Shown here: positions 48,675 through 56,922 of the stretch, piece by piece
Numbering within the stretch: the first letter of the stretch is position 1
Layout: each line of letters opens with the position of its first letter
Assembly (NCBI GenBank): GCA_021730945.1
Contig: JAKFYH010000010.1
Location: 1 to 56,922 of the forward strand
Reading direction: 5' to 3'
DNA: 56,922 bases
Origin: Acidobacteriota bacterium
GTDB lineage: Bacteria > Acidobacteriota > Vicinamibacteria > Vicinamibacterales > UBA2999
Notes under the pieces: model-generated
The model's database searches: none
What the model saw: the letters and a program-made list of their open reading frames with translations, nothing else
Told to the model about the DNA's origin: nothing
Translations under genes and position numbers: made by a program

Positions 48675-48735
48675 AGGCCACCCCTCCGAACATCGTACGG
48701 TGTAAGAAAGCGCCCGTGCGCGCGTTGAAGGAGTG

Positions 48736-49359
48736 ATGAAGGCGTTTCTCAAAGCGTTCGTGGTCTTGATCTTGGTGCTCGCAGTAACAGGTGGAATCGT
48801 CGCCTACTCCATAGCGAGCAAAGGCATCAGCACGCGTACCAACCCGAGCATGGCCGAAGAGACGATTGCAATGACCGTTCGGAGTCTGGCGACGCCTCGG
48901 TCGGTTCGCAATCAGCCAAATCCGGTTGAGCCAACGGCCGCGGCTCTGGAAGGCGCCCTCGACCATTGGGCGGATCACTGCGCGGCGTGCCACGCCAACG
49001 ATGGAAGCGGTAACACACAGATGGGCCGCAGCTTCTATCCGCCTTCGCCCGACATGCGCGGGACACGAACGCAGGCTCTGAAGGATGGAGCGTTGTTCTC
49101 GATCATCGAGAACGGTATTCGGCTCACCGGCATGCCTGCCTGGGGAACGGGAACGCCGGAGGGCGAACGCGAGTCGTGGGCTCTGGTTCACTTCATTCGG
49201 CGGTTGCCGAATCTAACCGCTACAGACATCGAGCGGATGGAAGGTCTGAACCCTCAGAGTCCCGCGAAGTTCCGCGAAGCCGAAGAAGCACGAATCTTTC
49301 TTGAAGGTATGACCGAAGCGCCGATGAACAGGTCGCCGACGAAACCGCATCATGACTAA
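48736..49359 (+). CDS. Membrane-anchored c-type cytochrome
   Basis: 207 residues. An N-terminal membrane helix (about 6-26) is followed by a monoheme cytochrome c domain with Cys82-Ala-Ala-Cys85-His86, and Met in Gly-Met-Pro-Ala-Trp as the probable axial ligand. The Shine-Dalgarno GAAGGAG ends 2 bases before ATG 48736; a GTG 3 bases earlier is possible. It overlaps the PcoA-like oxidase gene by 8 bases and heads the operon to 55683. It could take electrons from the oxidase or from Cu(I). Confidence 0.88.
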   Translation: MKAFLKAFVVLILVLAVTGGIVAYSIASKGISTRTNPSMAEETIAMTVRSLATPRSVRNQPNPVEPTAAALEGALDHWADHCAACHANDGSGNTQMGRSFYPPSPDMRGTRTQALKDGALFSIIENGIRLTGMPAWGTGTPEGERESWALVHFIRRLPNLTATDIERMEGLNPQSPAKFREAEEARIFLEGMTEAPMNRSPTKPHHD

Positions 49360-51205
49360 GTTTTCGCAGCGACACTCGCGTCGCACATTCGTTAAGGAAC
49401 TAGCCTTCGGCGCCGTTGCCGTCGGCTTGGGAACCGCGCGTGTCTCAACTGGCTACGCGCAATCCAGCGGCCGCCAGCCTCAAGGCGTTCTGACCGGCAC
49501 TGAGTTCGATCTTCGCATCGGACCCATGCCCATCAACATCACCGGTTCCGATCGCACGGCTTTCGCCGTTAATGGATCAGTTCCCGCACCTCTGCTGCGA
49601 TGGCGCGAAGGGGATACGGTCACTCTACGAGTCGCGAACTCTCTCGCCGAGGATGCCTCCATTCACTGGCACGGCATTCTGCTCCCGGCGAACATGGACG
49701 GCGTTCCCGGCCTGAGCTTCCGTGGGATCCGGCCCGGTGAGACCTATACCTACCGGTTTAATGTGCGCCAGGCCGGCACGTACTGGTACCACAGCCACTC
49801 TGGCTTTCAGGAACAGCAAGGCGTCTACGGGCCGCTCGTGATTGAACCGCGAGAGGCGGAGCCCTTCAAATACGACAGAGAGCACGTCGTGCTCTTGAGC
49901 GATTGGACTGACGAGAATCCTAGCCGCGTATTCGCCAAGCTCAAGAAACAGTCGGACTACTACAACTTCCACAAACGCACGGTCGTCAATTTCTTCCGAG
50001 ACGTCCGTGAGCGTGGGCTGGGTTCGACCCTGGATGATCGGTTGATGTGGGGAGACATGCGAATGAACCCCACCGACCTGGCGGATGTATCCGGTGCCAC
50101 CTACACGTATCTGATGAACGGCGTCGCGCCGGCCGGAAGCTGGACTGGGTTGTTCAAGCCCGGCGAGAAAGTCCGGCTCCGCTTCATCAACGGTTCCGCA
50201 ATGTCCTACTTCGACGTGCGGATTCCGGGTCTCAAGATGACGGTGGTTGCGGCCGACGGACAGCACGTGCATCCGGTCACGGTCGATGAGTTTCGTATCG
50301 CGACGGCCGAGACGTTCGACGTGATCGTCGAGCCCACGGGCCAAGACGCGTTCACGATATTTGCGCAGGCGATGGATCGCACCGGCTTCGCAGCTGGAGC
50401 GCTGGCAGTTCGTGAAGGTTTGCGCGCGCCGGTGCCTGAACCCGATCCGCGGCCATTGCTGTCGATGGATGACATGGGACACGGCGGTATGGGCCACGAC
50501 ATGGGGGCGATGAGCGAGTCGAAGCCGGCCCCGCCCCCCGCGACCGACCCACATGCGGGACACGTCGTGCCGTCCCCGGCACCCGCGGCTCCCGACCCGC
50601 ACGCCGGACACACGATGCCGGCGAAGCCGGAGGCACCCGCCGATCCGCACGCGGGCCACAACATGGCTGCCACAGGATCGATGCAGTTGCATCCGCCATC
50701 GGAGGACGGCAATCCACTGGTTGACATGCAGACGATGTCGCCGATGGCGAAGCTTGATGACCCGGGCATCGGCCTTCGCAACAACGGCCGCAGGGTGTTG
50801 ACGTATGCCGATCTGAAGAGCACGTTCGATGATCCAGACGGTCGCGAGCCCAGTCGGACCATCGAGCTGCACCTGACCGGGCACATGGAACGGTTTGCCT
50901 GGTCGTTCGATGGCATCAAGTTCTCGTCGGCCGAGCCTCTGCGCCTGACCTACGGCGAGCGCCTTCGGATCGTGCTCGTCAACGACACGATGATGAGTCA
51001 CCCGATCCATCTGCACGGCATGTGGAGCGATCTGGAAGACGAGCAAGGGCGATTCCAGGTTCGCAAACATACGATTGATATGCCGCCGGGCACCCGGCGC
51101 GCGTATCGCGTCCGTGCCGATGCACTGGGACGCTGGGCGTATCACTGCCATCTGCTGTTCCATATGGAATCAGGCATGTTCCGGGAAGTGCGGGTCGAAG
51201 AATGA
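49352..51205 (+). CDS. copA/pcoA: PcoA/CopA-type copper-resistance multicopper oxidase with Asp-Pro-His-Ala-Gly-His repeats
   Basis: 617 residues. Tat signal Ser-Arg-Arg-Thr-Phe-Val-Lys. Copper segments: His105-Trp-His107-Gly, Trp-Tyr-His-Ser-His, His-Pro-Ile-His-Leu-His-Gly, and His598-Cys599-His600-Leu-Leu-Phe-His-Met-Glu-Ser-Gly-Met. Between domains 2 and 3 lies a Met/His insert (Asp-Met-Gly-His-Gly-Gly-Met-Gly-His-Asp-Met) and three Asp-Pro-His-Ala-Gly-His units at residues 399, 415 and 431, exactly 16 residues apart. Oxidises and binds periplasmic copper. It overlaps the cytochrome gene upstream and pcoB-like gene downstream (4 bases). Confidence 0.94.
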   Translation: MTKFSQRHSRRTFVKELAFGAVAVGLGTARVSTGYAQSSGRQPQGVLTGTEFDLRIGPMPINITGSDRTAFAVNGSVPAPLLRWREGDTVTLRVANSLAEDASIHWHGILLPANMDGVPGLSFRGIRPGETYTYRFNVRQAGTYWYHSHSGFQEQQGVYGPLVIEPREAEPFKYDREHVVLLSDWTDENPSRVFAKLKKQSDYYNFHKRTVVNFFRDVRERGLGSTLDDRLMWGDMRMNPTDLADVSGATYTYLMNGVAPAGSWTGLFKPGEKVRLRFINGSAMSYFDVRIPGLKMTVVAADGQHVHPVTVDEFRIATAETFDVIVEPTGQDAFTIFAQAMDRTGFAAGALAVREGLRAPVPEPDPRPLLSMDDMGHGGMGHDMGAMSESKPAPPPATDPHAGHVVPSPAPAAPDPHAGHTMPAKPEAPADPHAGHNMAATGSMQLHPPSEDGNPLVDMQTMSPMAKLDDPGIGLRNNGRRVLTYADLKSTFDDPDGREPSRTIELHLTGHMERFAWSFDGIKFSSAEPLRLTYGERLRIVLVNDTMMSHPIHLHGMWSDLEDEQGRFQVRKHTIDMPPGTRRAYRVRADALGRWAYHCHLLFHMESGMFREVRVEE

Positions 51206-52050
51206 TCCGCACCGGTCTCCTGTTGCTTCTGATCGTCTGTTCGGCTCGAACTGCCTTTGCCCAAGAGACGCCGCCTGACCCTCACGCCGGCCATGTCATG
51301 CCGCCCGCAGCGCCTGCTCAAAACGTATCGGGCGAGCCTGCGACTCCTATTCCACCGGTTACAGATGAAGATCGCGCCGCCGCCTTTCCGCAAGACCTCC
51401 ACGGCCACACCGTTCATGACCGCGCCATCAACTACTCGGTCCTGTTCGACCAACTGGAATGGCAAGTGTCAGGCGACACCAAGGGCGGCATCTGGGACAT
51501 CAAGTCGTGGGTCGGTGGCGATGTGAATCGAGTCTGGATTCATTCCGAAGGCGCCTCCGAGGGATCCAGCCTTGAAGAGGCCGAAGTTCACCTCACTTAC
51601 GGCCACTCGTTCTCCAGGTGGTGGGATGTGGTGGCCGGGGTGCGACAGGATTTTCGCCCAGGCCCTGGTCAGACCTGGGCGACGGTCGGCATTCAGGGGC
51701 TCGCGCCGCAGTGGTTCGAAATACAGGCGACGCTCTACGTCGGCGAATCAGCAGCGACGATGGCCCGGTTCGAAGCCGAGTACGAGATGCTGATCACCAA
51801 CCGCCTGGTGTTGCAGCCGCTGGTCGAGCTGACGTTCTACGGTAAATCCATTCCGGAACGAGGTCTCGGGGCGGGACTCAGTGCGGTGGAAACCGGGCTC
51901 CGGTTGCGCTACGAGGTGCGACGCGAGTTCGCTCCGTACCTCGGCGCAGTCTGGCACCGTGAGTTCGGCGGCACCGCCGATTTCTCCACCGAAGCCGGCC
52001 ACGATATCGGTGGGTGGCGTTTGGCTGCCGGCTTGCGAACGTGGTTCTAG
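51202..52050 (+). CDS. copB/pcoB: PcoB/CopB-type outer-membrane copper-resistance protein
   Basis: 282 residues. Signal peptide to about Ala-Phe-Ala (residue 20), then Asp26-Pro-His-Ala-Gly-His-Val-Met-Pro, the same motif as in the upstream oxidase. The body is a beta-barrel with Trp-Trp-Asp-Val-Val-Ala-Gly-Val-Arg-Gln-Asp and alternating strands, ending in Phe (Thr-Trp-Phe), as outer-membrane proteins do. Length is within the CopB family range. It is coupled to the oxidase gene by an ATGA overlap. Likely role: copper binding or efflux at the outer membrane. Confidence 0.92.
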   Translation: MIRTGLLLLLIVCSARTAFAQETPPDPHAGHVMPPAAPAQNVSGEPATPIPPVTDEDRAAAFPQDLHGHTVHDRAINYSVLFDQLEWQVSGDTKGGIWDIKSWVGGDVNRVWIHSEGASEGSSLEEAEVHLTYGHSFSRWWDVVAGVRQDFRPGPGQTWATVGIQGLAPQWFEIQATLYVGESAATMARFEAEYEMLITNRLVLQPLVELTFYGKSIPERGLGAGLSAVETGLRLRYEVRREFAPYLGAVWHREFGGTADFSTEAGHDIGGWRLAAGLRTWF

Positions 52051-52070
52051 TGTTGTTGTTTACAGGAGCA

Positions 52071-52406
52071 ATGATGACAAGACGATTCATTCTGACGATT
52101 ACGGCTGCAGCTGTGATGACGATGACGCTGGGCGGCATCGCGGTTGCGCATCCCGGTCACGAGCACAAGATCATGGGCACGGTGACAATGGCGGCTGCCG
52201 ATCACGTGATGTTGAAGGACCCGGATGGCAAGGACGCGACGATCACGATCAACAAGGACACGAAATTCATGCGCGCCAAGAAAGCCATGAAGGCGGCCGA
52301 CATCAAAGTGGGCATGCGGATCGTGGTGACGGCGGTCACCGATGCCGACGACGACAAGTCGATCGCCAAGGTCATCGAGCTAGGCGCGGATCCGGTAACG
52401 AAGTAG
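52071..52406 (+). CDS. Exported DUF5666-like small protein, paralogue of the one at 18076
   Basis: About 111 residues. Signal peptide ending near Ala-Val-Ala-His (residue 26), so the mature N-terminus is His-rich (His-Pro-Gly-His-Glu-His-Lys). The domain has Gly-Thr-Val-Thr, Lys-Asp-Pro-Asp-Gly-Lys-Asp, Thr-Lys-Phe-Met-Arg-Ala-Lys-Lys. AGGAG lies before tandem ATGs at 52071 and 52074; the second is better spaced. Paralogue at 18076-18402. Sits between PcoB-like and YcnI-fusion genes. Function unknown. Confidence 0.82.
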   Translation: MMTRRFILTITAAAVMTMTLGGIAVAHPGHEHKIMGTVTMAAADHVMLKDPDGKDATITINKDTKFMRAKKAMKAADIKVGMRIVVTAVTDADDDKSIAKVIELGADPVTK

Positions 52407-52424
52407 CGACTGAGGAGATATTCG

Positions 52425-53276
52425 ATGGTGCGAACGCTTTCTGCTCTGACCCTGCTCCTGACCTTACCCTCGCTGGCGATGGCTCACGTAGGAGTCCGGC
52501 CCCGAGAGTCCAAGCCGGGCGCTGAAGAGCGCTACTCGGTTCGCGTTCCCACGGAAGGCGCGGTTGCGACAACGGCCGTTCGTCTGGAGATTCCCGACGG
52601 GGTCACCGTCCTCGAAGTGGAGAAAATGGGGGGCGAGACCTTCGAAGTTGAGAAGAAGGGCGACCGCATTGTCGCCATCACCTGGAAGCGCAGCATTCCA
52701 CCAAAAGAATCAGCCGACTTCTTCTTTCGTGCTCGGAACCCCGTTTCTGGAACCGAGATCGCGTGGAAGGCTCATCAACACTTCGCTGATGGGACGATGA
52801 CCGGATGGGTGGAGCCGGTGGGCGACAAGCGCCCGGGCCCGGTGACGAAGTTGACCGACGCGGGCGCGCAGGCCGTCCCGAACGACGTGGCTGGCATCGC
52901 GGCCTGGTTGAAGGGCTACGACGCGGCGTTCCTGACCAAGGACGTGACCAAGCTGGCGCCTTTCTATCATCCCGACGTCACAATTTACGAAGGGACCGGC
53001 ATCAACAACGGGTGGGCGGACTATCGCGATCGTCACCTGGGTCCGGAGCTCAAGGCTTTTGAGAACCTGGAGTTCGGCCACACCGATACCAAGGTCACGC
53101 TCATGCCCGGGGGGGAATCGGCGTATGCGACGTCGCGTTACACCATCAAAGCCAAGATGGGCGAGCGGATGCTCGACTCGGAGGGGCTCGAGACGCTGAT
53201 GCTGGTGAAGACGGCGGAGGGCTGGAAGATCCGGCATTCACACACGTCGAGCCGCGCGAGACGCCCGGCGCAATAG
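52425..53276 (+). CDS. YcnI-like (DUF1775) domain fused to an NTF2/SnoaL-like domain
   Basis: 283 residues. The signal peptide ends Ala-Met-Ala, leaving mature His (His-Val-Gly-Val-Arg-Pro), the copper-ligand position of DUF1775. Family marks follow: Tyr-Ser-Val-Arg-Val-Pro-Thr-Glu and Ile-Pro-Pro-Lys-Glu-Ser-Ala-Asp-Phe. After about residue 150 a second domain begins, an NTF2-like/DUF4440 fold with Trp-Leu-Lys-Gly-Tyr-Asp-Ala-Ala-Phe, Phe-Tyr-His-Pro-Asp-Val and a final Trp-Lys-Ile-Arg-His-Ser-His. The fusion is unusual; the stand-alone YcnI at 19772 lacks the second domain. It lies 9 bases before the Lgt-like gene. Confidence 0.87.
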   Translation: MVRTLSALTLLLTLPSLAMAHVGVRPRESKPGAEERYSVRVPTEGAVATTAVRLEIPDGVTVLEVEKMGGETFEVEKKGDRIVAITWKRSIPPKESADFFFRARNPVSGTEIAWKAHQHFADGTMTGWVEPVGDKRPGPVTKLTDAGAQAVPNDVAGIAAWLKGYDAAFLTKDVTKLAPFYHPDVTIYEGTGINNGWADYRDRHLGPELKAFENLEFGHTDTKVTLMPGGESAYATSRYTIKAKMGERMLDSEGLETLMLVKTAEGWKIRHSHTSSRARRPAQ

Positions 53277-53285
53277 GAGGCGGTT

Positions 53286-54023
53286 ATCTATCCCGTCCTC
53301 TTTCGCATCGGGGGCTTCGAGATCACCAGCTTTGGCGTGCTCGTCGCGATTGGTGCGCTCGTGGGATTGTGGGTATTTCGGCGCGAGTTGAACCGAGCCG
53401 GTCTGCCGCAGGACACGACCGACGCGGCGTTCGCAGGCATTTTCGGCGGCCTGTTCGGCGCGAAGCTGTGGTGGGCCGTCGAGTTCTCCGGCAGCGCGCC
53501 ATTCCTCTCGCTACTGCTCTCTCGCGGCGGATTGAGCTGGTTCGGGGGATTCACGGGAGGGATCGCGGCGGGCCTGCTCGTGATTCACCGGAAGCGGCTG
53601 CCGCTTCTCGCCACCCTTGCGGCGGCTTCCCCAGCCTTGGCGATAGGCCATGCGATCGGGCGAATCGGCTGCTTTCTGGTTGGGGACGATTACGGCCAGG
53701 CCAGTGATCTGCCCTGGGCAGTAGCTTTTCCTGAAGGCCTACCGCCGACGCTTGAACGCGTTCATCCGACGCAAATCTACGAGGCAATCGCGCTTTTCGC
53801 CATTGCTTGGCTGCTGCTAGGTTGGCGTCGTCAAAGACGTAGCGACCGATTGGTCCTGGGAACGTACTTTGCCCTGGCCGGAATGACGCGCTTCCTGATT
53901 GAGTTCGTTCGCGTCAACGAGCGCGTCCTGGGTCCCTTGACTATTGCACACCTCGCCTCGGTGGCTGCCGTACTGGTCGGCGCCTTGCTCTTGGCGGGTT
54001 CACGGCGTGCTGTTACTACCTAA
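53286..54023 (+). CDS. Lgt-like prolipoprotein diacylglyceryl transferase with an apparent ATC start
   Basis: 245 residues, about seven membrane helices. Family marks are Ile-Gly-Arg-Ile-Gly-Cys-Phe-Leu-Val-Gly-Asp-Asp-Tyr-Gly, Leu-Pro-Trp-Ala-Val-Ala-Phe-Pro and Val-His-Pro-Thr-Gln-Ile-Tyr-Glu; it would transfer diacylglycerol to lipoprotein cysteines. AGGAGG at 53275-53280 is followed 5 bases later by ATC, then Tyr-Pro-Val-Leu-Phe-Arg-Ile, where Lgt proteins begin (Met-His-Pro-Val-Leu-Phe-Arg-Ile). No ATG, GTG or TTG is there; the first usual start is GTG 53337, which would remove 17 residues including conserved ones. An unusual start or ATG-to-ATC change is possible. Linked to the MerT-like gene by 13 bases. 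Confidence 0.8.
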   Translation: MYPVLFRIGGFEITSFGVLVAIGALVGLWVFRRELNRAGLPQDTTDAAFAGIFGGLFGAKLWWAVEFSGSAPFLSLLLSRGGLSWFGGFTGGIAAGLLVIHRKRLPLLATLAAASPALAIGHAIGRIGCFLVGDDYGQASDLPWAVAFPEGLPPTLERVHPTQIYEAIALFAIAWLLLGWRRQRRSDRLVLGTYFALAGMTRFLIEFVRVNERVLGPLTIAHLASVAAVLVGALLLAGSRRAVTT

Positions 54024-54036
54024 GATTGGATCATCC

Positions 54037-54411
54037 ATGAATGAAAGAGCCGCAACGGTGGTTGGACTGTTCTCGTCAGTCACCACTCTAATTTGTTGAA
54101 CGCTGCCAATTGTGTTCGTGAGCCTAGGTCTAGGCTCCGTCGTTGCGTCAACGCTTGAAGTCGCGCCCTGGTTGATGGCCGTGGGCGCGCAGAAGAGCAT
54201 CATCTTCCCGGTGGTCGGCGTGTTCCTGGCCTTCAACTACTGGCTGGCTGTCGCACGCCCGAAGAAAATGGAGTGCGAGCCTGGTGACATCTGTCACATT
54301 GACAGCCCGGTTTCTCGATTTAACCGAGCGATGTTTTGGACATCGCTTGCGATCTACGTGATTGCTGTAGTGGCGACATATGGAGCTCAATGGTGGATAC
54401 TGCGTTCGTAA
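54037..54411 (+). CDS. MerT-like selenoprotein: Cys-Sec metal-transport membrane protein (TGA at 54097)
   Basis: 124 residues if TGA 54097-54099 is read as Sec21. TM1 carries Ile-Cys20-Sec21-Thr-Leu-Pro, the place of the paired cysteines (Cys-Cys) of MerT. Two further helices follow. The cytoplasmic loop Lys-Lys-Met-Glu-Cys-Glu-Pro-Gly-Asp-Ile-Cys-His matches MerT's Cys-Lys-Pro-Gly-Glu-Val-Cys. The frame is open for 104 codons after the TGA to the expected family end. A SECIS-like hairpin follows at 54120. It lies 13 bases after the Lgt-like gene and overlaps the outer-membrane gene by 22 bases. Proposed role: inward Hg(II) (or soft-metal) transfer with the MerP-like protein. selB and tRNA-Sec are not in the window. 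Confidence 0.85.
54120..54137 (+). promoter_or_regulatory. SECIS-like hairpin downstream of the merT-like TGA
   Basis: Seven-base-pair stem GAGCCTA / TAGGCTC with a GGTC loop (54127-54130). The loop begins 27 bases after TGA 54097-54099, within the 16-37 range of bacterial SECIS elements, and has the conserved G at its first position. Would bind SelB. Not folded computationally. Confidence 0.72.
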
Positions 54412-55253
54412 ATTGGCGCTGGCTATCCGCCGTTGCACTGGTGATCGTCGGCTCCCACACCGAGCTTCGAGCGAGCGGCCATGGCCCTGTGTTCGGAGCC
54501 GCGACGCCGACGCTGGGCCGCGGCGGCTGGAGCATCGATCAGGCTTACACGTTCCGGGGCGGCGAGGGTGATGATCCTCAATCGCAGCAGATGTTCAAGA
54601 CGATGGTGTCGTTCGGCATCACGGAGACCGTACAGATATCCGGCTCGGTCCCCGTCGCGATGTCCGACGGGCTGGCGCCTTCCCGGATGATGAGTGCGAT
54701 GTCGAGCGAGCGTGAATTCGAGGCGCTGCTCGCGTATCGGTTTCAGAAACGAACGGTGGGGATCGGCGGCCGTCAAGAAAGCACCCTCTATGTCGGTGGA
54801 ACTATGCCGATGGAGGACGAGCGCGCTGGCGCGCCCGTTGGGTCTTCATTGGTCGTGCAGGCAGCGACCGGCTATGCCTCCCGTGCCCACTATGCGTGGT
54901 TCGGCGGCGGTGCGCAGCACTTCATCGAGCGCGATGGGGCTCGGCAGGGTGATTCGCGCTTCCTGACGTTCGTTTACGGCTATCGTCCACCGCCGCTTCG
55001 AGTCGAGCCGGGAAAGCCGGATCTCCGGTTCTTCGTGGAGGTTACGGCCGAGGACCGAACCGCGACGACGAGTGCCGGTATCGACGTCGCGCCAGGTGGC
55101 CGCACGGTGTTTGTCGGCCCTACTTCATTGCTCGTCTATAAGGCGATTGCTCTCGAGGGTGGCGTGCTGTTTCCCGTTTATCAGAAGGACGCTCAATTCC
55201 GGGAGAGGATGCGCGTCGCAGTCAACTTCGCGTATTTCTTCTGGCTCAAGTAA
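54390..55253 (+). CDS. Predicted outer-membrane beta-barrel protein
   Basis: 287 residues from ATG 54390 (GGAG 4 bases upstream). Signal peptide to about residue 29, then Gly/aromatic alternating strands (Gly-Gly-Trp-Ser-Ile-Asp-Gln-Ala-Tyr-Thr-Phe, Val-Gln-Ile-Ser-Gly-Ser-Val-Pro), ending in Phe-Ala-Tyr-Phe-Phe-Trp-Leu-Lys. Met-rich bits (Pro-Ser-Arg-Met-Met-Ser-Ala-Met) near 90 are suggestive. I do not recognise the family; it resembles a porin-like transporter. It overlaps the MerT-like gene by 22 bases and ends 10 bases before the MerP-like gene, so it may be the outer-membrane partner of that pair. Confidence 0.8.
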   Translation: MVDTAFVNWRWLSAVALVIVGSHTELRASGHGPVFGAATPTLGRGGWSIDQAYTFRGGEGDDPQSQQMFKTMVSFGITETVQISGSVPVAMSDGLAPSRMMSAMSSEREFEALLAYRFQKRTVGIGGRQESTLYVGGTMPMEDERAGAPVGSSLVVQAATGYASRAHYAWFGGGAQHFIERDGARQGDSRFLTFVYGYRPPPLRVEPGKPDLRFFVEVTAEDRTATTSAGIDVAPGGRTVFVGPTSLLVYKAIALEGGVLFPVYQKDAQFRERMRVAVNFAYFFWLK

Positions 55254-55263
55254 GGTGGTAATC

Positions 55264-55683
55264 ATGCGTAAAGTGATCACGGCTGTTGTCGCCTGTTTGT
55301 TGACCGCATCGTCCGCAGGCGCAGAGTTGCGCCATGTGGAGATCAAAACGCTCGGGATGGATTGAGAGACCTGTGCCCACGCCGTGCGCGTGGCAATGCG
55401 GAAGGTCGATGGTGTCCAGGACGTGACGGTCAGCCTGAAGGATGGCATGACGTTGCTTGGTCTCAAACCCGGCAACACAGTTACTTTGACCAAGCTTCGC
55501 GAAATCATCAAAAACAGTGGCTTTGTGTCCAAGGAAGCGACGATTGTCGCCGCAGGTCAGGTTCCCGGCGCCGGATCGCCGTCCGTGTTTGTGGTCGGTG
55601 GAACCGGTGAGCGATTGCCATTGGTGGGCCAGGCGACGGGCGCCGGTCAAGGGCTTTGGCGATTTACTTCCCAGGCCAAGTAG
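55264..55683 (+). CDS. MerP-like periplasmic selenoprotein: HMA domain with Sec-x-x-Cys (TGA at 55363)
   Basis: 139 residues if TGA 55363-55365 is Sec34. Signal peptide 1-20 (cut Ala-Gly-Ala). The HMA domain (about 22-90) has Gly-Met-Asp-Sec34-Glu-Thr-Cys37-Ala, where MerP has Gly-Met-x-Cys-x-x-Cys; then Val-Asp-Gly-Val-Gln-Asp-Val and Leu-Arg-Glu-Ile-Ile-Lys-Asn-Ser-Gly-Phe. A C-terminal extension (about 95-139) is unlike MerP. AAGGTGG precedes ATG 55264. The frame is open for 105 codons after TGA, and a SECIS-like hairpin follows. Proposed role: periplasmic Hg(II) (or Cu/Ag) carrier handing metal to the Cys-Sec pair of the MerT-like protein. Confidence 0.87.
55374..55395 (+). promoter_or_regulatory. 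SECIS-like hairpin downstream of the merP-like TGA
   Basis: Stem of 4 pairs (55374-77 with 55392-95), a bulged C at 55378, then 4 pairs (55379-82 with 55388-91), loop CGTGC (55383-55387). The loop starts 17 bases after TGA 55363-55365, within the bacterial SECIS range, and has G at its second position. Not folded computationally. Confidence 0.68.
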
Positions 55684-55784: not shown

Positions 55785-56102
55785 TCAAGTAGCGGGAGGG
55801 TGAGGAATCGGCGGCTCTTCCATCCCGAACAAATCCTGACCCCGGTGCAACACCGTCGGAGTGCCATAGCCTCCGCGCGGGTCAGAACTTGCCAACGTGT
55901 CGGCGTCGATGAACTGGTAGTCGTTCGGTAAGCCTAGCGTCTTCAGAGCCACGTCCAGATTGGCTCGCATCGTTACCGTGTTCACGCACCCTTCGCGGGT
56001 CAGGAAAACCAAGTCCTTCATCGTCGCTTTCTCTTGTGGGGACTGCGGCGGGCTCCCGCACCCGACGAGCGAACACGCGAAAAGTACGCCGCACGCGACC
56101 AT
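55785..56102 (-). CDS. Thioredoxin-fold lipoprotein under MerR control
   Basis: 105 residues. Lipobox Leu-Val-Gly-Cys15, then a small thioredoxin-like domain: Leu-Val-Phe-Leu-Thr-Arg-Glu-Gly-Cys39-Val-Asn-Thr-Val, and the cis-Pro-like Tyr-Gly-Thr-Pro-Thr-Val-Leu; end Pro-Pro-Ile-Pro-His-Pro-Pro. Only one active-site Cys is visible (Cys-x-x-Thr). The frame is open to 56138, but that start lies upstream of the MerR-type promoter (transcript start about 56114), so ATG 56102 is chosen. Likely Hg(II)-induced; role unknown, perhaps thiol handling of periplasmic metal. Confidence 0.82.
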   Translation of the reverse strand: MVACGVLFACSLVGCGSPPQSPQEKATMKDLVFLTREGCVNTVTMRANLDVALKTLGLPNDYQFIDADTLASSDPRGGYGTPTVLHRGQDLFGMEEPPIPHPPAT

Positions 56103-56120
56103 CCGAATTCCCACGATTGA

Positions 56121-56151
56121 GCTTAAACTCCGTACCAAGGTACGGAGTCAA
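56121..56151 (-). promoter_or_regulatory. MerR-type promoter and operator for the thioredoxin-like lipoprotein gene
   Basis: On the minus strand: -35 TTGACT (56151-56146), a 19-base spacer, -10 TTAAGC (56126-56121). The spacer holds a perfect palindrome of two 10-base arms around AA (56127-56148, arms ACTCCGTACC/GGTACGGAGT). This is the Tn501 PmerT layout: the same TTGACTCCGTAC start and the stretched 19-base spacer that MerR distorts to activate. The merR gene starts 8 bases from the operator on the other strand, so it is probably autorepressed. Confidence 0.9.
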
Positions 56152-56155
56152 CAAC

Positions 56156-56578
56156 ATGGTGACCGCGCTAGAAAGCATATCTATAGGGGCAATGGCGGAG
56201 GCGGCCGGGGTGGGCGTCGAAACAGTGCGGTTCTACCAGCGAAAGGGGCTCCTTCGTGAGCCGAGACGCGGTCGCGGTGAGATCCGGCGATATAGCTCGC
56301 AGGATGTTGCCCGCCTGAAGTTCATCAAGGCGGCTCAGCATCTTGGTTTTACCCTCGGCGATGTCGCCGGGTTGTTGACACTGGAGGATGGCCGTCATTG
56401 TAAAAAGGCTCGTGCGATGGCCGAATTGCGGTTGCAGGACGTTCGCCGGAAGCTGCACGATCTGCGACAGATGGAGTCTGCGCTCCAGGAAATGGTTGAG
56501 CGGTGCTGTGCAACGGAGGAGCGCATGGCATGTCCACTCATCGTCGCTTTACAAGATGATGCCAGGGGCGCCAATTGA
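56156..56578 (+). CDS. merR: MerR, mercury-responsive transcriptional regulator
   Basis: 140 residues. N-terminal MerR winged helix (Val-Gly-Val-Glu-Thr-Val-Arg-Phe-Tyr-Gln-Arg-Lys-Gly-Leu-Leu), coiled coil, and the Hg(II) ligands Cys82 (Arg-His-Cys), Cys117 and Cys126 (Ala-Cys-Pro-Leu). From ATG 56156 these three fall at exactly the Tn501 MerR numbers, with Cys118 extra. Activates the divergent promoter at 56121-56151. No merA, merB or merC follows; the gene runs into the disrupted anti-sigma gene and the IS. Confidence 0.94.
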   Translation: MVTALESISIGAMAEAAGVGVETVRFYQRKGLLREPRRGRGEIRRYSSQDVARLKFIKAAQHLGFTLGDVAGLLTLEDGRHCKKARAMAELRLQDVRRKLHDLRQMESALQEMVERCCATEERMACPLIVALQDDARGAN

Positions 56579-56611
56579 AGTCAGTTGGACATCAACGCCG
56601 TTAAGCGGCCT

Positions 56612-56795
56612 TCACAGATCCCGCTCGGCTAGCTGGAGTCCGTCGGCGTCGGCAACGGCCATCAGAGCCGACAAGACGCGAACGACGCCAGCGACCAGAG
56701 CGATGCAGATTGGGCAAACCGCCAAATGGTCTTCCAACCGGAGCCGTTCGCGCTTCATAAGGCCTCGATCAATGTAGGCCGCCAATGCCTCGGAG
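56612..56795 (-). pseudogene. Zinc-finger anti-sigma factor, truncated by the IS insertion
   Basis: Reading from the IS junction on the minus strand: Ser-Glu-Ala-Leu-Ala-Ala-Tyr-Ile-Asp-Arg-Gly, Leu-Glu-Asp-His-Leu-Ala-Val-Cys-Pro-Ile-Cys, then a hydrophobic helix, stop TGA 56614-56612. The His-x3-Cys-x2-Cys motif is the zinc-binding anti-sigma (zf-HC2) signature. The N-terminus is missing at the IS end, so the insertion broke or truncated the gene. It may still be open across the junction; only the C-terminal part is seen here. The 33 bases 56579-56611 show nothing. Confidence 0.72.
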
Positions 56796-56922
56796 TGAGC
56801 CTGATCCGATTTGGTGGACGGTTTAACTACGCTGCCTGAGCTAGTGCCCGCCGCTCGAACTCTGCCGGACTGATCTGGCCGAGTGTGGAGTGCCGACGCT
56901 TCTGGTTATAGAACACTTCGAT
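56796..56922 (-). mobile_element. Right end of an IS3-family insertion sequence (right copy, inverted)
   Basis: Reverse complement of 1-127, identical. The right end of the element (TGAGCC... on the plus strand) points inward, as at the left end, so both IS copies would lie outside with their right ends facing the island. It interrupts the anti-sigma-like reading frame. The two adjoining bases also match by chance. No clear 3-base target duplication is shared between the ends, as expected if the ends are two separate insertions. Confidence 0.85.
56827..56922 (-). CDS. IS3-family transposase OrfB, C-terminal fragment (right copy)
   Basis: Same 31 C-terminal residues as at 1-96, on the minus strand, stop at 56827-56829. 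It is cut by the window end. See the left copy for motifs. The complete transposase gene would lie beyond the window. Confidence 0.85.
   Translation of the reverse strand: MEVFYNQKRRHSTLGQISPAEFERRALAQAA

Follow-up and report, generated by a model that had tools for sequence, protein, structure and literature searches.

A MerP-like selenoprotein and a predicted Cys-Sec MerT-like partner in a probable soft-metal module of an Acidobacteriota bacterium

The window analysed here, the whole 56,922-nucleotide stretch of contig JAKFYH010000010.1 from an Acidobacteriota bacterium, carries a gene for a MerP-like protein in which a UGA codon occupies the place of the first metal-binding cysteine. We believe that this protein is a selenoprotein carrier, that it belongs to one module with a Cys-Sec MerT-like protein, and that the module handles a soft metal, most probably Hg(II). 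We put the probability of this reading as a whole at about two in three. Comparison of the gene with its relatives strongly supports the decoding of the UGA at 55363 as selenocysteine (Sec) by the SelA, SelB, SelD and tRNA-Sec of the genome together with a downstream SECIS hairpin. The features of the region are listed in Table 1.

Table 1. Features of the window that are discussed in the text.
Feature	Position	Strand	Details
Copper-resistance type cluster	48733..53276	+	cytochrome-like, CopA multicopper oxidase, CopB-like and two further ORFs
Prolipoprotein diacylglyceryl transferase gene	53337..54023	+	PF01790, 6e-46; directly upstream of the MerT-like gene
MerT-like inner-membrane protein gene	54037..54411	+	predicted Cys-Sec at the vicinal Cys-Cys site of membrane helix 1
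TGA codon, probably read as Sec	54097..54099	+	at the second position of the MerT Cys pair
Candidate SECIS of the MerT-like gene	54120..54137	+	stem GAGCCTA/TAGGCTC; loop GGTC at 54127-54130
Probable outer-membrane protein gene, conserved	54390..55253	+	between the two predicted selenoprotein genes; start inferred
MerP-like selenoprotein gene (HMA gene)	55264..55683	+	signal peptide, HMA domain with Sec-x-x-Cys, C-terminal extension, as predicted
TGA codon, predicted to be read as Sec	55363..55365	+	first Cys column of the HMA metal motif
Bacterial SECIS hairpin, predicted	55377..55393	+	6 bp; loop CGUGC (loop 55383-55387)
Small thioredoxin-like lipoprotein gene	55785..56105	-	by our reading of the sequence; Cys-x-x-Thr (GCVNT); divergent from merR
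Mer-type operator/promoter	56120..56151	-	TTGACTCCGTACCTTGGTACGGAGTTTAAGCT; directed at the thioredoxin-like gene
MerR-type regulator gene	56156..56578	+	Cys at 82, 117, 118 and 126

The HMA gene and its in-frame TGA codon

The HMA gene starts with the ATG at 55264 and contains one in-frame TGA, after which 105 sense codons run to a TAG. This confirmed the earlier note on this DNA, which had claimed a single TGA at the first metal Cys of an HMA domain with 105 open codons behind it. With the TGA read as Sec, the metal motif becomes GMD-Sec-ETC (GMD-U-ETC). When Cys was placed at the TGA, the Pfam HMA model (PF00403) was matched at 8.7e-7 and 29.7 bits, above its gathering cut-off of 24.8, and we infer an HMA fold for the product from this match. 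The N-terminus reads to us as a signal peptide, and the product would be exported. About 50 residues follow the HMA domain, a C-terminal extension shorter than that of most relatives in the clade. No match to the protein was found among plasmid records, and none in PHROGs.

The earlier note had also called the protein MerP-like and proposed a selenium-substituted periplasmic carrier with very high affinity for Hg(II) or Cu(I)/Ag(I); the MerT-like partner with its TGA and the outer-membrane protein are absent from that note. The resemblance to MerP stands, but membership of the MerP family does not, as the score with the MerP model TIGR02052 was 36.2 bits and the cut-off is 92.55. The selenocysteine part of that proposal is strongly supported by the alternation of codons at the column, the sel genes and the covarying hairpin, whereas the metal and the very high affinity are conjecture.

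Alternation of TGA and Cys codons

The first survey covered 396 genomes of the phylum and gave 52 match rows for the HMA protein in 43 genomes. TGAs were present in 11 of the 52 rows. In ten of these rows all 13 TGAs fell on metal-Cys columns; seven rows were UxxC, and the other three (L033, L040 and L102) were Sec-x-x-Sec (UxxU). The TGA of the eleventh row (G092:C43) is the gene's own stop after the HMA domain, and a TAA in L032 also lies after the domain. The second survey covered 399 genomes of the class of G210 and gave 43 rows, of which 40 were looked at; the three left out (G511, G540 and G808) are all without stops. A TGA was present in twelve rows, each time at the first Cys column. 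One identical contig accounts for two of these rows, and G210 was also in the first survey. Over both surveys, there were 20 distinct TGA-type HMA copies, and every TGA inside the matched domain fell on a metal-Cys column.

For a tree, 47 rows were chosen (19 Sec and 28 Cys) and the motif was masked. The tree needed five Sec/Cys changes, the number that its well-supported branches also force. An earlier tree of 23 rows needed three changes. In G377, a Sec copy and a Cys copy lie about 1 kb apart with a MerT-like gene between them. The earlier note had proposed looking for homologues with Cys at the TGA column and for alternation of TGA and Cys codons there; such homologues exist, and the alternation was found in both surveys and in the 47-row tree. 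A genome-contig scan with the HMA protein gave three loci, all of them distant Cys-type HMA proteins. Two further Sec-x-x-Cys HMA proteins (L125 and L126) were seen in G159, a genome of the same genus; as far as seen, they are outside the family of the module, and similar HMA proteins are L119, L121, L122, L124 and L127.

Selenocysteine machinery

The components for Sec insertion were found in the genome of the window, with tRNA-Sec present and scores of 522.2 bits for SelA (cut-off 267.9), 308 bits for SelB (cut-off 242.25) and 352.5 bits for SelD (cut-off 125). The earlier note had named the absence of selB and tRNA-Sec as evidence that would count against its claim, and all four components are present. 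The selD gene has an in-frame TGA as well, which makes its product a Sec-type SelD (SCAG-U-ASK; G000:C34:15882-16808, L098).

Of the 43 genomes matched in the first survey, 31 were tested for selA. It was over the cut-off in all nine genomes with a TGA at the motif. Among the 22 other genomes, selA was found in 16, one had sub-threshold matches only, and five had none. The Sec machinery hence does not imply the Sec form, since 16 of the 22 genomes without a TGA at the motif also have selA. The five genomes without selA are all five tested members of the Cys-type genus g63; selA and the Sec form occur together in G210, which belongs to the family of g63. A Sec/Cys switch that follows the machinery would agree with this, the order of events aside. 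The tRNA-Sec model was matched in all 31 genomes, because other long tRNAs also fit the model; even G147, which has no selA, gave a match over the cut-off at 58.6 bits.

If translation of the HMA gene truly stopped at the TGA, or the codon were a nonsense mutation, the gene would be broken, yield a short peptide or be restarted at the GTG at 55384. An internal GTG ORF (55384-55683) does exist, and TGA is one base away from the Cys codons. However, homology to the relatives continues past the TGA, the codon recurs at one column in distant genomes, of which the nine tested have selA, and the SECIS hairpin covaries. A restart would also lose the signal peptide and the metal motif. We regard a true stop as extremely improbable.

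The SECIS hairpin of the HMA gene

A hairpin with loop CGTGC 17 bases downstream of the TGA had been claimed in the earlier note, and it was present on folding, with the stem CCACGC/GCGTGG. Its energy is ordinary for the local GC-rich coding DNA: 20% of 613 coding windows were equally stable, and 131 of 300 synonymous recodings held a hairpin as stable as that of the gene. Hairpin energy alone was rejected as evidence for a SECIS element, being not unusual for local coding DNA.

The hairpin was compared in 14 Sec sequences from the clade of the window. The pairing was kept in 83 of 84 pair cells, and five of the six stem pairs were changed on both sides, with stems such as CCACGC/GCGTGG, ACACGC/GCGTGT, CTTCGC/GCGGAG and CCACAT/ATGTGG. 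The loop starts with CGUG in all 14 sequences. None of 500 shuffles reached the pairing or covariation score of this alignment, and 99 of 500 reached the number of pair types, which is one of five covariation measures. In 12 Cys relatives of family f19, to which the Cys side of the comparison was confined (11 further Cys rows of the clade were left out), the same columns paired in 45.8% of cells with no double change, and the consensus fold differed from the Sec-type hairpin. The hairpin is therefore more than chance, as its pairing covaries in the 14 Sec sequences and is lost in the 12 Cys relatives. Judged by these comparisons, it is the SECIS element of the HMA gene. According to the accessible part of a review, bacterial SECIS (bSECIS) elements have a G in the first or second loop position, often followed by G or U, and a loop 16-37 nt from the UGA (PMC13188914). 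The loop C-G-U-G-C, 17 nt after the UGA, agrees with this rule as it is given there. Farther off among the Sec relatives, a 7-bp hairpin with a different loop occupies this position in L031, and the rest fold differently. A search of the window with Rfam gave no hit at the gathering threshold, and for 55300-55500 there was none up to E = 10. Given how greatly bacterial SECIS elements vary, this means little.

The MerT-like gene

The MerT-like gene contains a sole in-frame TGA, which gives LIC-U-TLP, and the frame stays open for 103 codons after it. The vicinal Cys pair in the first membrane helix, a feature of MerT, would thus be present as Cys-Sec. The scores with the MerT models were below the cut-offs, at 22.4 against 32.9 for PF02411 with the part after the TGA and 34.4 against 150 for NF010314 with the read-through protein. 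A hairpin lies downstream, with a 7-bp stem and a GGUC loop that is 27 nt from the TGA. Equally good folding was seen in only 2 of 300 synonymous recodings, yet 10% of coding windows hold a hairpin as stable, and similar energies occur in the hairpins of a few Cys relatives. The hairpin is known from this one Sec-type sequence only; its loop and distance fit the bSECIS rule in the form stated in the accessible text of PMC13188914.

Relatives of the MerT-like gene have Cys-Cys at the place of the TGA in 27 of 27 other match rows from the 396-genome survey, and also in 13 of 13 further MerT rows, two of them identical, from loci with relatives of the HMA gene. When 148 genomes of the class of G067 were searched with the MerT-like protein, only the gene of G067 itself was found at E 1e-8 or better. 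Six MerT-type matches elsewhere had a TGA; the five that were seen are ordinary end-of-gene stops, and the sixth is in G239.

The HMA gene could be a selenoprotein gene while the TGA at 54097 is a recent nonsense mutation. The absence of any TGA relative among these 27 and 13 rows speaks for such a mutation, as do the 10% of coding windows that are equally stable and the similar hairpins of some Cys relatives. On the other side, the TGA would have hit, of all positions, a metal-binding Cys, with 103 open codons behind it. The rarity of recodings that fold as well (2 of 300), together with a GGUC loop at the bSECIS distance, also argues against a mutation, as do the Sec machinery of the host and the Sec-type partner gene that shares the apparent operon. 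We consider a recent mutation unlikely. The TGA is very probably read as Sec, which would make the MerT-like protein the second selenoprotein of this apparent operon.

The outer-membrane protein and the three-gene module

Between the two predicted selenoprotein genes lies a gene for a protein of about 287 residues, whose inferred start at 54390 would overlap the end of the MerT-like gene. The product is probably an outer-membrane barrel, because it has a signal-like start and the family has an aromatic C-terminal pattern (FSYFF in the consensus). The protein had no Pfam match and no NCBIfam match. Comparison of the family profile with outer-membrane receptors of known structure gave only E = 0.079 and 0.17, which is no evidence, and AlphaFold run without an alignment gave an uninformative model (mean pLDDT 32.9).

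Twelve loci were compared first, and all three genes were present in seven of them. The order MerT, outer-membrane protein, HMA was found in L050, as in the window, and the other six had the order outer-membrane protein, HMA, MerT. Among 34 loci compared next, the outer-membrane gene was present in 16 and always adjoined an HMA gene (L143 and L144 are identical). MerT was not found beside the outer-membrane gene in L146, L147 and L152; in L145 the sequence stops before this could be seen. The 18 loci that lack the outer-membrane gene include most Cys-type rows and the Sec-type L150, which is cut by a contig end, and L151. The genes for the outer-membrane, HMA and MerT proteins form a conserved module.

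At E 1e-5, the HMA protein was absent from all 5 genomes of the same genus and all 9 of the same family that the first survey listed. The contig ends in an apparent insertion element (56560-56922, minus strand), which we take to be the end of an IS3-type transposase gene. The module was probably acquired, since close kin are without the HMA protein and the contig ends in this element. A short Cys-containing ORF beside the transposase-like end looks like an anti-sigma zinc-finger fragment.

Neighbouring genes and the choice of metal

The regulator downstream of the module scored 150.6 bits with the MerR model, just below the cut-off of 150.85. Its Cys residues 82, 117 and 126 are presumably the counterparts of the Hg ligands of Tn501 MerR. 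The mer-type operator beside merR faces the gene of the thioredoxin-like lipoprotein rather than merTPA. That lipoprotein had no Pfam match and no NCBIfam match; its gene is context, and its membership of the module is only possible. Matches to the mer-type promoter pattern were also found upstream of the outer-membrane and HMA genes in L143 and L147, counted without a chance expectation. L152 holds a Sec-type relative beside MerA (529.9 bits against 454.45) and MerP (117.7 against 92.55), and its MerR is 51% identical to that of the window.

In the genome of the window, six matches to MerA were found, none over the cut-off, and a complete mer operon was not found. The two best MerA matches lie beside acyltransferase genes and were read as lipoamide dehydrogenases. 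Flavoprotein disulfide reductases with GGTCALRGCDPK were observed near mer-type genes at L152:531-1877 (minus strand), L050:4100-5446 (minus strand) and L055:18961-19902. Those of L152 and L050 scored below the MerA cut-off, and the GGTCALRGCDPK flavoproteins are possible unrecognised Hg or thiol reductases.

Upstream of the module, the CopA-type multicopper oxidase was matched by TIGR01480 at 987.6 bits against 478.95; the cytochrome-like, CopB-like and other names of this cluster are our reading of the sequences. The prolipoprotein diacylglyceryl transferase gene sits inside the metal cluster of the window, just ahead of the MerT-like gene. None of the copper-cluster genes of the window was matched in the first 12 module loci. 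In the 34 loci, the matches were partial or weak only: the multicopper oxidase in L161, the gene at 52425 (YcnI-like) in L168 and L174, and a weak cytochrome in L142 and L172. Of these five loci, only L142 has the outer-membrane gene.

The same selenoprotein module might serve Cu(I) or Ag(I) and extend the CopA/CopB-type cluster in periplasmic copper trafficking or detoxification, the MerT-like homology serving as no more than a scaffold. The module lies directly 3' of the CopA multicopper oxidase cluster on the same strand, the CopZ models scored as high with the HMA protein as MerP did (38.2 and 37.6 against 36.2 bits), 22 of its 24 relatives of solved structure are named as copper proteins or copper ATPases, and no MerA over the cut-off exists in the genome. 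However, the best score of the inner-membrane partner is with a MerT model, the adjoining MerR has Cys 82, 117 and 126 and a mer-type operator, and a Sec-type relative stands beside merA and merP in L152. The copper genes, moreover, are absent from the 12 loci and only partial or weak in five of the 34. We hold the copper or silver module to be a serious but distinctly less probable explanation.

Mercury is favoured as the metal because of the MerT-like partner, the MerR with Cys 82, 117 and 126, the mer-type operator, and the MerA and MerP of L152. What counts against it is that imported Hg(II) would have no known reductase here, with no MerA over the cut-off, that the copper-type cluster lies upstream on the same strand, and that the mer-type operator faces another gene. 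On balance, the sequence context leads us to favour mercury over copper by about 3 to 1.

Proposed mechanism

At neutral pH, selenolates are deprotonated, and their binding of soft metals is stronger than that of thiolates. We propose that the selenolate and thiolate of the periplasmic Sec-x-x-Cys protein would together capture a soft metal ion, Hg(II) being the most probable one. Ligand exchange would then move the ion on to the Cys-Sec pair in the MerT-like protein, and the outer-membrane protein may form the outer end of the same metal path. Sec would act as a metal ligand and fast exchanger, not as a redox catalyst. As no MerA that could take over imported Hg(II) was found, the metal may be moved inwards or outwards, or may be sequestered in the periplasm.

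The Sec-x-x-Cys motif could also be a redox pair with a thiol-disulfide or reductase function and no role as a metal ligand. In the available part of the Global Ocean Sampling (GOS) study, 33 of 51 selenoprotein families are homologues of thiol oxidoreductases or have Trx-like folds, many with UxxC (PMC2398784). The domain in the present protein is nevertheless HMA by Pfam, three relatives (L033, L040 and L102) are Sec-x-x-Sec, and the partner is of the metal permease type. A redox pair is very unlikely in our opinion.

A bolder form of the proposal is a trans-envelope selenium relay, in which Hg(II) (or Cu/Ag) would pass from the Sec-x-x-Cys carrier to the Cys-Sec of the MerT-like protein, with a dedicated outer-membrane protein and with selenolate as the ligand at two successive stations. 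The module would then be an undescribed one, spread through the phylum with repeated Sec/Cys exchange. We offer this relay tentatively and think that it may well not hold in full.

Relation to known systems

Sec in MerP-like and MerT-like proteins is already known from catalogues. The 2008 GOS selenoproteome lists a Sec form of "Mercuric transport protein MerP" with 2 sequences and also a "Putative mercuric transport protein" (PMC2398784). Reviews list a MerT-type selenoprotein (PF02411, ABB16073), a cation-transporting ATPase with UxxC and a UxxU metal-binding protein (PMC9312934, PMC13188914). In the open-licence literature on Sec in MerP and MerT, as far as its accessible text extends, only such catalogue entries were found, and the vicinal Cys-Sec MerT, the module with an outer-membrane protein and the covarying SECIS with a CGUG loop were not. 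A search of PMC1794560 and PMC1914089 for mercury and metal terms gave no match.

Like MerP (TIGR02052) and its GOS Sec form, the protein described here has an exported HMA domain and lies near a MerT-type gene. It differs from MerP in its score below the TIGR02052 cut-off, its C-terminal extension and its linkage to an outer-membrane protein; the table in PMC2398784 gives no Sec motif for its two sequences. Like ABB16073, the MerT-like protein is a membrane protein of the MerT type that would contain Sec. Here, the Sec would stand in a vicinal Cys-Sec of the first membrane helix, whereas the accessible text of PMC13188914 writes C/SxxU and that of PMC9312934 gives no motif; the two were compared by description only.

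Three further families are comparable. Both domain types are joined in NF045683, whose name (MerT/CopZ fusion-like heavy metal transport selenoprotein) marks it as a selenoprotein; it is, however, a fusion, the two proteins of the window scored 28.4 and 19.1 bits against its cut-off of 375, and the cut-off was reached in none of 247 genomes. NF041115 (UxxU metal-binding (seleno)protein) is similar in its HMA-like domain with Sec at the metal motif, but the protein of the window is UxxC and scored 36.2 bits against 95; three relatives are UxxU. The HMA domain of CopZ-type copper chaperones matches the same stretch. CopZ-type chaperones are cytoplasmic, whereas the protein here would be exported and would contain Sec.

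Implications

The analysis suggests that selenium is used here as a grip for a toxic metal. With a carrier and a permease that would both have Sec at their metal ligands, the role of selenium as a soft-metal ligand becomes directly testable, and the sister genes with Sec and Cys are already at hand for comparison. Both proteins would be shortened, and a conserved three-gene metal module lost, by annotation that ends genes at TGA.
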